Origin: Psychrilyobacter atlanticus DSM 19335
GTDB lineage: Bacteria; Fusobacteriota; Fusobacteriia; Fusobacteriales; Fusobacteriaceae
Direction of reading: 5' to 3'
NCBI RefSeq assembly: GCF_000426625.1
Contig: NZ_KE384548.1
Location: 372,001-436,000 of the forward strand
DNA: 64,000 nucleotides
This document shows positions 21,771 to 24,273 of the stretch, piece after piece. Both the position numbers and the translations under genes were made by a program. The notes under the pieces were generated by a model, which saw only the letters and a program-made list of their open reading frames with translations, was not told the origin of the DNA and searched no databases. Numbering within the stretch: the stretch's first letter is position 1; each line of letters begins with the position of its first letter.

Positions 21771-23882
21771 TTATAATTTAAATAATAATTCTTCATAAGT
21801 CGGGAATGGCCACATCTTGTGTTCTACTATTCCTTCTAAGTTATCTCCATGAGTCCTTAACTCTTTCATAAGAGGCAATAATTGATCTTTAGTGAAGTTA
21901 ACACTTAGTGTGATATCTTCTAAATTATTTAACTCCTCTAATTTTTCTTCTAATTTTTTAGCGGTATTGTATAAACCGGCATTATTTTTTAAGATAGAAG
22001 TTAGAAGTTCTTTTTGAGTTACTGCGAACCCCTCTCCTAATATTTTAGAAGATTTTTTAATTATTTCAGCTAGCTCTAAAGCGTATCTATTTGATGCTGG
22101 ATAGATATCTTGGACAGCCATCTTAATCATTACAGCTGATTCTGTAACTATTTGATTATAATAATTTTCAGCATAGATATTATATCTAGAGATCAATTCT
22201 CCCTCAGATAATACTCCGTGTCTTCCAAATAGTTCAATTGTTTCAGAAGTGATATAAGTTCCTATTACATCTGTTGTAGATTTTAAATTAGGCAGTCCCC
22301 TTTCCTTAGCTTCTTCTACCCATTCCTCACCATAACCATTTCCAGAGAAGATGATTCTTTTATGCTCTTTGTATGTTTTAGATATTAATTTTTGAATTCC
22401 TTTAGTCTTATCTTCTACTCCTTCTAACTCATCAGCAAACTCTTTTAATACATCTGCCATAATAGTATTTATCATGATATTAGGTGTAGAAGTACTTTGA
22501 CTAGAACCAGGCATTCTAAATTCAAACTTATTTCCTGTAAATGCAAACGGAGAAGTTCTGTTTCTATCGGTGATATCCATAGATAACTTAGGTAAAGAAT
22601 CTACTCCAATTTCCATTTTACTTTTAGTTTCTAATTTTTCATCAGTCTTTTTAAAGATAGTTTCTAACTCATCCCCTAAGAAGATAGAGATTATAGCTGG
22701 TGGAGCTTCATGTCCTCCTAATCTGTTGTCGTTAGATGCACTTGCAGTAGATAGTCTAAGAAGTGGTGCATACTTATCTACAGCCTTTATAACAGCAGCT
22801 ACAAAGATTAAAAATTGTGCATTCTCTTTAGGATTTTTCCCTGGATCAAATAAGTTTATTCCATCATCGGTAGCCAGAGACCAGTTATTATGTTTACCTG
22901 AACCATTAACATCTGCAAATGGTTTTTCATGTAATAACGCAACTAGATCATGTCTGATAGCTACTTTGTTTATAGTATCCATTACAAGTTGATTTTGGTC
23001 GGTAGCTACATTTGAAGTACTGTATACAGGGGCAAGCTCAAATTGGTTAGGAGCTACCTCGTTATGTTTTGTCTTTGAAGGGATTCCTAATCTCCATAAT
23101 TCAAAGTCCAATTCTCTCATATAGGCAGCTACTCTCTCTTCAATAGTTCCATAATAATGACTTCTAAGCTCCTGTGATTTAGCAGGTTTTGCACCAAATA
23201 ATGTTCTACCTGTATGAGCTAAGTCCAATCTTTTGTTGAATAAGTTTTTTTCAACTAAGAAATATTCCTGTTCTGCTCCTAAACATGTAGTGATATGTTG
23301 AGAAGTGTTATTTCCTAAGATCTTTAAGATTCTAAGAGCTTGTTTTTCAACGGCATTCATAGATCTAAGCAGAGGTACTTTTTTATCCAAAGCCTCTCCA
23401 GTATAAGCAACAAAAGCAGTAGGGATATATAGTGTAATCCCTGTATTGTCATCCTTTAAAAAAGCTGGTGATGTAGTATCCCAAGCAGTATATCCACGAG
23501 CTTCGAAAGTAGATCTTAGCCCACCATTTGGAAATGAAGATGCATCTGATTCTCCTTTAATTAACTCTTTTCCAGAGAATTCCATTATGATTTGTCCGTC
23601 TCCAATAGGAGAGATGAAAGAATCATGTTTTTCTGCAGTAAGTCCATTTAATGGTTGGAACCAGTGAGTAAAATGAGTTGCTCCTTTTTCTATTGCCCAG
23701 TCCTTCATGGCATTGGCAATTACTTCAGCAATGGAAAGAGTTAATTCCTTTCTACCATTTTGTACCTCTAAAAATTCTTTGAACACACTCTTTGGGACAC
23801 GTTGTCTCAAGGTAGTTTTGTCGAAGCAATAATCTCCATAAATTTCAGGTACACTTTTAGTTTCATTAATAATTTTTTCCAT
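21771..23882 (-). CDS. glnN: type III glutamine synthetase
   Basis: A 703-residue GSIII that condenses ammonia and glutamate with ATP. GSIII-specific length and motifs are visible: ATHFTHWFQPLNG, CLGAEQEYFLV with metal-binding glutamates, KHNEVAPNQFELAPVY, DVNGSGKHNNWSLAT, and ASNDNRLGGHEAPPAI. It is the only ammonia-assimilation gene in the window. The leader is unusual: promoter at 24245-24273, a 34-codon ORF ending in an intrinsic terminator, then a purine-riboswitch aptamer with a second terminator. AGGAGG lies six bases before the ATG. Confidence 0.98.
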   Translation of the reverse strand: MEKIINETKSVPEIYGDYCFDKTTLRQRVPKSVFKEFLEVQNGRKELTLSIAEVIANAMKDWAIEKGATHFTHWFQPLNGLTAEKHDSFISPIGDGQIIMEFSGKELIKGESDASSFPNGGLRSTFEARGYTAWDTTSPAFLKDDNTGITLYIPTAFVAYTGEALDKKVPLLRSMNAVEKQALRILKILGNNTSQHITTCLGAEQEYFLVEKNLFNKRLDLAHTGRTLFGAKPAKSQELRSHYYGTIEERVAAYMRELDFELWRLGIPSKTKHNEVAPNQFELAPVYSTSNVATDQNQLVMDTINKVAIRHDLVALLHEKPFADVNGSGKHNNWSLATDDGINLFDPGKNPKENAQFLIFVAAVIKAVDKYAPLLRLSTASASNDNRLGGHEAPPAIISIFLGDELETIFKKTDEKLETKSKMEIGVDSLPKLSMDITDRNRTSPFAFTGNKFEFRMPGSSQSTSTPNIMINTIMADVLKEFADELEGVEDKTKGIQKLISKTYKEHKRIIFSGNGYGEEWVEEAKERGLPNLKSTTDVIGTYITSETIELFGRHGVLSEGELISRYNIYAENYYNQIVTESAVMIKMAVQDIYPASNRYALELAEIIKKSSKILGEGFAVTQKELLTSILKNNAGLYNTAKKLEEKLEELNNLEDITLSVNFTKDQLLPLMKELRTHGDNLEGIVEHKMWPFPTYEELLFKL

Positions 23883-23926
23883 TTGGACCTCCTAAGTTGT
23901 TTGAATGTTCATTGTGATTAATTTAT

Positions 23927-24055
23927 AAAAAAACCAAGACATGTTTTAAGTAAGTGAAAAACAAGCCTCGGACGATAGCGGCATAAATTCACTTATAGTG
24001 GTTAATTTGTGGTAAACCCTAGAAACTCCCAACCATATTATGGGGATATATAAGT
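23927..24055 (-). promoter_or_regulatory. purine riboswitch (guanine-type, variant) with terminator platform before glnN
   Basis: Read on the minus strand, the aptamer spans 24055-23991. P1 ACUUAU pairs with AUAAGU. L2 AAUAUGG and L3 CCACAAA have the loop-loop G-G / C-C pairs. J2/3 is GUUUCUA, and J3/1 is ACU with C at the specificity position (C74), as in guanine binders. One departure from consensus is G rather than C at position 53. Then CCGAGGC (23971-23965) pairs with GUCUUGG (23940-23934) and UGUUUU with AAAACA, followed by seven U, a terminator. The P1 3' strand UAAGUGAA (23995-23988) is complementary to UUCACUUA (23958-23951) in that terminator's loop and arms. This gives an OFF switch when purine stabilises P1. 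Confidence 0.8.
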
Positions 24056-24069
24056 TTTATATAAATTTT

Positions 24070-24105
24070 AAAAAAGGGGGACAGTGACCTGAAGTCACTA
24101 TCCCC
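24070..24105 (-). terminator. strong intrinsic terminator upstream of the riboswitch
   Basis: On the minus strand GGGGATAGTGAC (24105-24094) pairs along all 12 positions (one G-U) with GTCACTGTCCCC (24088-24077), followed by C and six T. The stop codon of the 34-codon ORF sits inside its 5' arm. No good second promoter is visible between this terminator and the aptamer, so glnN transcription from the upstream promoter must pass through it. Confidence 0.9.
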
Positions 24106-24202
24106 TATAAGAAACTATTTTTAGTTTTTTAGATACTAAGCCCATCTTTGAAGTGAAGCTAAATATGAAAATGTCTAATTTATCAATTTTTTTTAAAACC
24201 AT
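24098..24202 (-). CDS. 34-residue leader ORF upstream of glnN
   Basis: ATG at 24202 lies seven bases behind a strong GGAGG, and 34 codons run to a TAG at 24098. The basic, hydrophobic peptide begins MVLKKIDKLDIF and ends KIVSYRG; it matches no family I know. It starts about 35 bases after the predicted transcription start. Its last three codons (AGG GGA TAG) form the 5' arm of the terminator at 24070-24105, so a ribosome ending there would cover that arm. It may be a regulatory leader peptide rather than a functional product. It shows no run of glutamine or another single amino acid. Confidence 0.6.
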   Translation of the reverse strand: MVLKKIDKLDIFIFSFTSKMGLVSKKLKIVSYRG

Positions 24203-24244
24203 TTGCTTACCTCCAAATTTTTATGTGTACCAACTATTTAGAGC

Positions 24245-24273
24245 ATTATAACAAATTTTTAGGAAAGAAGCAA
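24245..24273 (-). promoter_or_regulatory. promoter of the glnN leader
   Basis: On the minus strand TTGCTT (24273-24268), 17 bases, and a perfect TATAAT (24250-24245). Confidence 0.8.

Follow-up and report, generated by a model that had tools for sequence, protein, structure and literature searches.

Transcription of glnN, the gene for glutamine synthetase type III in Psychrilyobacter atlanticus DSM 19335, is probably now controlled by a guanine-class purine riboswitch born of a duplication of the purL leader. The arrangement was analysed in a 64,000-nucleotide stretch of this genome (the window, in genome G000, whose positions are used throughout). Three aspects are new: glutamine synthetase as the target gene; an origin from the purL leader that can still be read; and a departure from the aptamer consensus that has been conserved.

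The regulated gene, glnN (21771..23882, minus strand), encodes 703 amino acids and is preceded by the ribosome-binding site AGGAGG (23888..23893, minus strand). Its product matches three Pfam domains (GSIII_N, Gln-synt_C, and Gln-synt_C-ter, with PF12437 at 3.8e-74 and PF18318 at 9.8e-40), which agree with the type III enzyme named in an earlier reading of the sequence alone (hereafter, the sequence-only reading). It is the only match to the glutamine synthetase catalytic domain (PF00120) in a genome that is 97.9% complete; complete shut-off would therefore be costly without outside glutamine.

A cmscan search of the whole window returns a single Rfam match: the purine riboswitch family RF00167 scores 57.3 bits (cut-off 37 bits; E 3.2e-7) over minus-strand positions 23976-24073. 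The three-stem aptamer, P1-P2-P3, occupies 23991..24055 (minus strand). Its loops and junctions read AAUAUGG (L2), GUUUCUA (J2/3), CCACAAA (L3), and AC-UAU (J3/1), so that all motifs named in the sequence-only reading are present. The GG of L2 and the CC of L3 keep the kissing contacts intact, and the guanine-class positions U22, U47, and U51 are retained along with C74, the ligand-discriminating position, which that reading had also called correctly (23998). Its boundaries are accurate too, with P1 starting at 24055 and the U-run of the terminator stopping at 23927. The P3 stem carries a U-U mismatch. By C74 the element is thus a purine riboswitch of the guanine type, guanine binding itself being predicted. 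A chance match is ruled out by the E value, by the 12 elements of this family that the genome carries, and by four orthologues.

The predicted folding energy of the aptamer is ordinary (z -0.8), a score that is uninformative for a small AU-rich element. Support for the element therefore comes from the covariance model, from relatives, and from conservation. Relatives score 56.4-81.5 bits against RF00167. RNAalifold proposed an incorrect structure for the aptamer alignment, so the three-stem structure known for the family was imposed; with it, 85.9% of P1, P2, and P3 cells are paired across 37 distinct fusobacterial aptamers, and covariation is 0.543 versus 0.218 after shuffling. The glnN-leader orthologues, taken alone, vary too little to display covariation.

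Downstream of the aptamer lie the parts of a switch (all minus strand). The 5' arm of an antiterminator, UAAGUGAA (23988..23995), was located by partial-transcript folding in three species and overlaps the 3' strand of P1; its 3' arm, UUCACUUA (23951..23958), overlaps both the 5' arm and the loop of T2, an intrinsic terminator (CCGAGGCUUGUUUU...AAAACAUGUCUUGG plus U7, 23927..23971; -12.7 kcal/mol). In G055 the antiterminator pairing is kept through a G-U pair. P1, antiterminator, and terminator thus share sequence, as the sequence-only reading proposed, and in folding the P1/antiterminator and terminator-plus-U-run structures are mutually exclusive, a design identical to that of purL. While the transcript still lacks the 3' arm of the terminator, the antiterminator fold is predicted at -20.9 and the aptamer fold at -14.7 kcal/mol; once the terminator is complete, the two outcomes differ by about 1 kcal/mol or less, as expected of a switch (all equilibrium predictions that exclude ligand and tertiary contacts). 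The same pattern appears in three species (G000, G059, and G055). Because the P1 3' strand is common to the antiterminator, ligand binding should favour termination. As modelled, then, the platform is a transcriptional OFF switch of the purL design.

The resemblance to purL extends to the sequence. The glnN aptamer shares 61-64 of 73 bases with purL aptamers in each of the five genomes of the genus that were examined, against 53 of 73 for the next-best gene (apart from purL of G054, a species of another genus, at 58 of 76 aligned). The two platforms also resemble one another (z 4-8), and the spacer preceding the ribosome-binding site likewise aligns between the leaders. Judged from these alignments, the glnN leader was copied from the purL leader and has since diverged.

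These observations suggest a simple mechanism. When guanine or hypoxanthine is low, the P1 3' strand would join the antiterminator (UAAGUGAA with UUCACUUA), blocking T2 and allowing glnN to be transcribed; when ligand is bound, P1 would hold, T2 would form, and transcription would end ahead of glnN. The enzymes GlmS, PurF, PurL, and GuaA all consume glutamine. Since purine synthesis spends glutamine amide nitrogen (at PurF, PurL, and GuaA), the arrangement would constitute end-product feedback, through which purine sufficiency lowers the glutamine supply. That guanine turns glnN transcription off is the best reading of the leader, with the ligand a prediction. The sequence-only reading had guanine or hypoxanthine switching off glutamine synthetase; the guanine type (C74), the OFF platform, and the position directly before glnN all stand, and we infer the remainder: the guanine response of glnN, the identity of the ligand, the direction of control in the cell, and a sensitivity below that of the purL parent.

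Reduced sensitivity is proposed because of a single residue. A triple formed by A23, G46, and C53 above the ligand pocket was reported to be present in every sequence examined (PMC3764141). The glnN aptamer has A23 and G46, but position 53 is G (24019, facing G46 at 24026, as the sequence-only reading had noted). C53 is found in 84 of 86 distinct fusobacterial aptamers, and both G53 sequences are glnN leaders. A pattern scan adds two more G53 aptamers: the glnN leader of G061, which makes G53 fixed in all four glnN orthologues of the genus; and one in G087, from another family, which rules out the idea that G53 is unique to glnN leaders. (The unrelated G087 aptamer, L282 943-1040, minus strand, precedes a gene for a secreted product resembling a methylthioadenosine/adenosylhomocysteine nucleosidase.) In the predicted ligand-free partial transcript, the pairs G53-C74, A52-U75, and U51-A76 extend P3 over the pocket. 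G53 could thus weaken or alter ligand binding, and we infer from the modelled fold that it lowers sensitivity to guanine. With G53 and a possible C74 pairing, the switch would respond less readily than its purL parent, so that the sole glutamine synthetase would be trimmed and not silenced.

The same residue raises the possibility that the leader is a relic: a copied purL leader whose ligand binding was abolished by C53G together with the P3 mismatch, leaving a fixed leader in which the antiterminator usually wins. The described invariance of the triple (PMC3764141) favours this idea, as do the predicted pairing of G53 with C74, which would fill the pocket, and an aptamer fold predicted to be weaker than that of purL (-9.2 versus -12.6 kcal/mol). 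The pattern of substitution argues otherwise. Between G000 and G055 none of 68 aptamer bases has changed, whereas 15 of 105 positions differ in the small upstream ORF discussed below (Fisher p 5e-4 against the aptamer), as do 82 of 239 fourfold sites of glnN (34%; Fisher p 4e-11). Across the four orthologues neighbouring sequence diverges strongly, but the aptamer changes only at position 62 in L3 (G059) and near position 45 at the P2/J2-3 edge (G061), both of which vary across the family. Comparison of these sequences indicates that the aptamer is under purifying selection. Moreover, the terminator and antiterminator pairing are kept, and G53 arose independently in G087 before the nucleosidase-like gene. 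Loss of function is accordingly an improbable account.

A second alternative accepts a working guanine switch and gives it another meaning, in which guanine reports that purines are on hand as a nitrogen source, their breakdown yielding ammonium and lessening the need for glutamine synthetase, or acts as a general signal of nitrogen or growth, and not as feedback from purine synthesis. The composition of the regulon lends this some appeal. Besides glnN, the 12 purine riboswitches of the genome precede xpt, three purine permease genes, guaA, guaB, purL, and genes for a nucleoside-binding lipoprotein and an EamA transporter, and aptamers with U74 (the adenine type) precede adenosine-deaminase-like and adenine-deaminase-like genes (targets named by inspection of downstream ORFs). 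The relatives G055, G059, G057, and G060 have the same set with small differences. It is the permease and deaminase genes that fit a role in nitrogen scavenging. The parent leader, however, came from purL, a glutamine-consuming biosynthetic gene, and the genus described below in which a glmS ribozyme precedes glnN also places a report on a glutamine-consuming pathway before this gene. We therefore regard this meaning as unlikely.

Very improbable is a changed ligand specificity (for a nucleoside, xanthine, or another metabolite), for which a G53 in the top layer of the pocket that is fixed in four glnN orthologues and seen once elsewhere, combined with an unusual gene, would speak, a core change with an atypical gene having marked the xanthine-II, guanine-II, and 2'-dG variants (PMC9295807), but no direct contact with the ligand is described for position 53, U22, U47, U51, and C74 are all kept, and an independent glnN switch in G054 has an ordinary C53, which points to guanine as the useful signal.

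Feedback from purine synthesis by a retuned guanine switch gains from RNA sensors placed before glnN in other lineages. Of 98 genomes from the phylum Fusobacteriota, 85 yielded a glnN, and the loci examined were scanned with Rfam, with a model from 42 fusobacterial aptamers, or with both. Four species of the window's genus (G000, G059, G055, and G061) have a purine riboswitch before glnN; the G061 orthologue, which was located by pattern scan, shows the whole leader layout. No purine riboswitch was found before glnN in two members of the genus (G060 and G058), nor within the 200 bases available before a contig end in G057. G054, one species of another genus, carries a purine aptamer before glnN (81.5 bits) whose P1 3' strand opens a 13-bp antiterminator competing with a terminator. 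This aptamer shows no kinship with purL (best match 54 of 79) and lies before a small upstream ORF, whereas that of G000 lies after one. A common origin for the two switches is ruled out by these opposite positions and by aptamers unrelated within the family. Since the G054 aptamer is unrelated and in another genus, purine switches were recruited to glnN at least twice. The sequence-only reading had suggested looking elsewhere in the phylum for the same element; the yield is three more congeners and this unrelated case. Overall, a purine riboswitch before glnN is present in 2 of 29 genera, with none in most of the phylum, which speaks against the feedback reading. Outside the phylum, 80 glnN loci gave no purine matches, and in 40 of these loci no Rfam match preceded glnN.

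A different RNA occupies this position in genus g25, which belongs to another family. All four of its genomes have a glmS ribozyme (RF00234, 72.3-87.7 bits) whose 3' end lies about 35-50 bases ahead of glnN (L059 1292-1451; L064 3638-3798; L061 3029-3188; L089 624-782). The conserved core segments AGCGCY and GACGAGGA are intact, and three of the four genomes have a second glmS ribozyme before glmS itself. Like the purine switch, the glmS ribozyme is an end-product sensor of a glutamine-consuming pathway; it differs in being a self-cleaving RNA, found in a different phylogenetic branch and outside this window. Conservation in four species, the second recruitment, and the g25 ribozyme together support the view that glutamine synthetase is functionally tied to glutamine-consuming pathways, and suggest that these pathways feed back on glutamine supply through RNA.

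In Escherichia coli, products of glutamine metabolism, AMP and glucosamine-6-phosphate among them, inhibit glutamine synthetase by cumulative feedback. The purine and g25 arrangements before glnN would, by analogy, parallel this logic. A broader hypothesis, to which we give roughly even chances, is that glutamine synthetase in the Fusobacteriota is under lineage-specific RNA sensors borrowed from glutamine-consuming pathways (the guanine riboswitch twice, the glmS ribozyme once), and that the borrowed aptamer in the window's genus was retuned by C53G. If true, classical cumulative feedback inhibition of the enzyme would have a counterpart at the RNA level, and the hypothesis makes a general prediction open to testing: end-product RNA sensors of glutamine-consuming pathways get recruited to glutamine synthetase. 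A purine riboswitch would here govern the entry of nitrogen into metabolism, beyond the purine synthesis, salvage, and transport that such riboswitches are described as controlling, and the conserved G53 provides a natural way to test how much change the purine pocket tolerates while still working.

Known guanine riboswitches, in the xpt and purL leaders, have the same three-stem junction, L2/L3 contacts, C74, P1-sharing antiterminator, and OFF terminator. The glnN element differs in controlling glutamine synthetase; in having G53 in place of C53, and a P3 U-U mismatch; and in sitting behind a small ORF and another terminator. The rare variants (xanthine-II, guanine-II, 2'-dG-II, and 2'-dG/guanosine) likewise combine a changed core position with an atypical gene, but they alter the ligand-contacting position 51, have insertions in J2/3, or both, whereas the glnN element changes only position 53 and has no insertion (PMC9295807). 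The cyanobacterial glutamine riboswitch (glnA RNA, RF01739) is likewise an RNA element within a circuit that controls glutamine synthetase, but it senses glutamine itself and is an unrelated RNA (PMC11477304 ref 60); the Rfam scan found no match to it in the window. A comparative study of riboswitch regulons assigned purine riboswitches to the metabolism and transport of purines (PMC3766115). Searches of the open literature turned up no description of a purine or guanine riboswitch with glutamine synthetase or glnN, as the sequence-only reading also stated, though absence overall is not thereby proven. RNA-based control of glnN is apparently a wider and undescribed pattern.

Upstream of the riboswitch lies a second layer (all minus strand). 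A likely promoter, TTGCTT and TATAAT separated by 17 nt (24245..24273), was identified by reading the sequence; TTGCTT falls under the hexamer threshold of the mechanical scan, which therefore missed it. The -10 element (TATAAT or TATACT) and the spacing are kept among relatives. There follows a small ORF of 34 codons (MVLKKIDKLDIFIFSFTSKMGLVSKKLKIVSYRG*; 24098..24202) with its own ribosome-binding site. Its stop lies within the 5' arm of T1, a first intrinsic terminator found by terminator scan, with a perfect GC-rich hairpin and a U-run (24070..24105). Since the ORF and T1 lie upstream of the riboswitch, glnN probably passes two attenuators in series, with the riboswitch acting only on transcripts that get past T1. 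In G060 the T1 hairpin immediately precedes the glnN ribosome-binding site and leaves no room for another promoter; expression of glnN therefore probably depends on read-through of T1. The small ORF is present in G059, G055 (with an in-frame deletion), G060, and G061, and together with T1 it may form a translation-coupled attenuator. Leader-peptide control through glutamine codons was considered and rejected, as the ORF has none in G000, G059, G055, or G060.

G045, the three Ilyobacter-group genomes, and G054 likewise have a small ORF ahead of glnN whose end falls at or within a terminator, with little similarity between the peptides. In total, four genera show an arrangement in which the stop codon of such an ORF lies within or next to a terminator (window 24070-24273, minus strand; L049-L053).

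Other purine aptamers encountered in the survey have features of their own. That of the EamA transporter gene in the window's genome has a swapped L2/L3 contact (GG to GC in L2, CC to GC in L3), and G054 has two tandem swapped-contact aptamers (U74) before a nucleoside-binding lipoprotein gene; aptamers of this kind are located at L012 1501-1602 (minus strand), L225, and L231. Purine riboswitches also lie upstream of genes that sequence inspection identifies as formate-tetrahydrofolate ligase-like (three genomes) and xanthine-dehydrogenase-FAD-subunit-like (one gene, in G054; L242, L246, L274, and L239).
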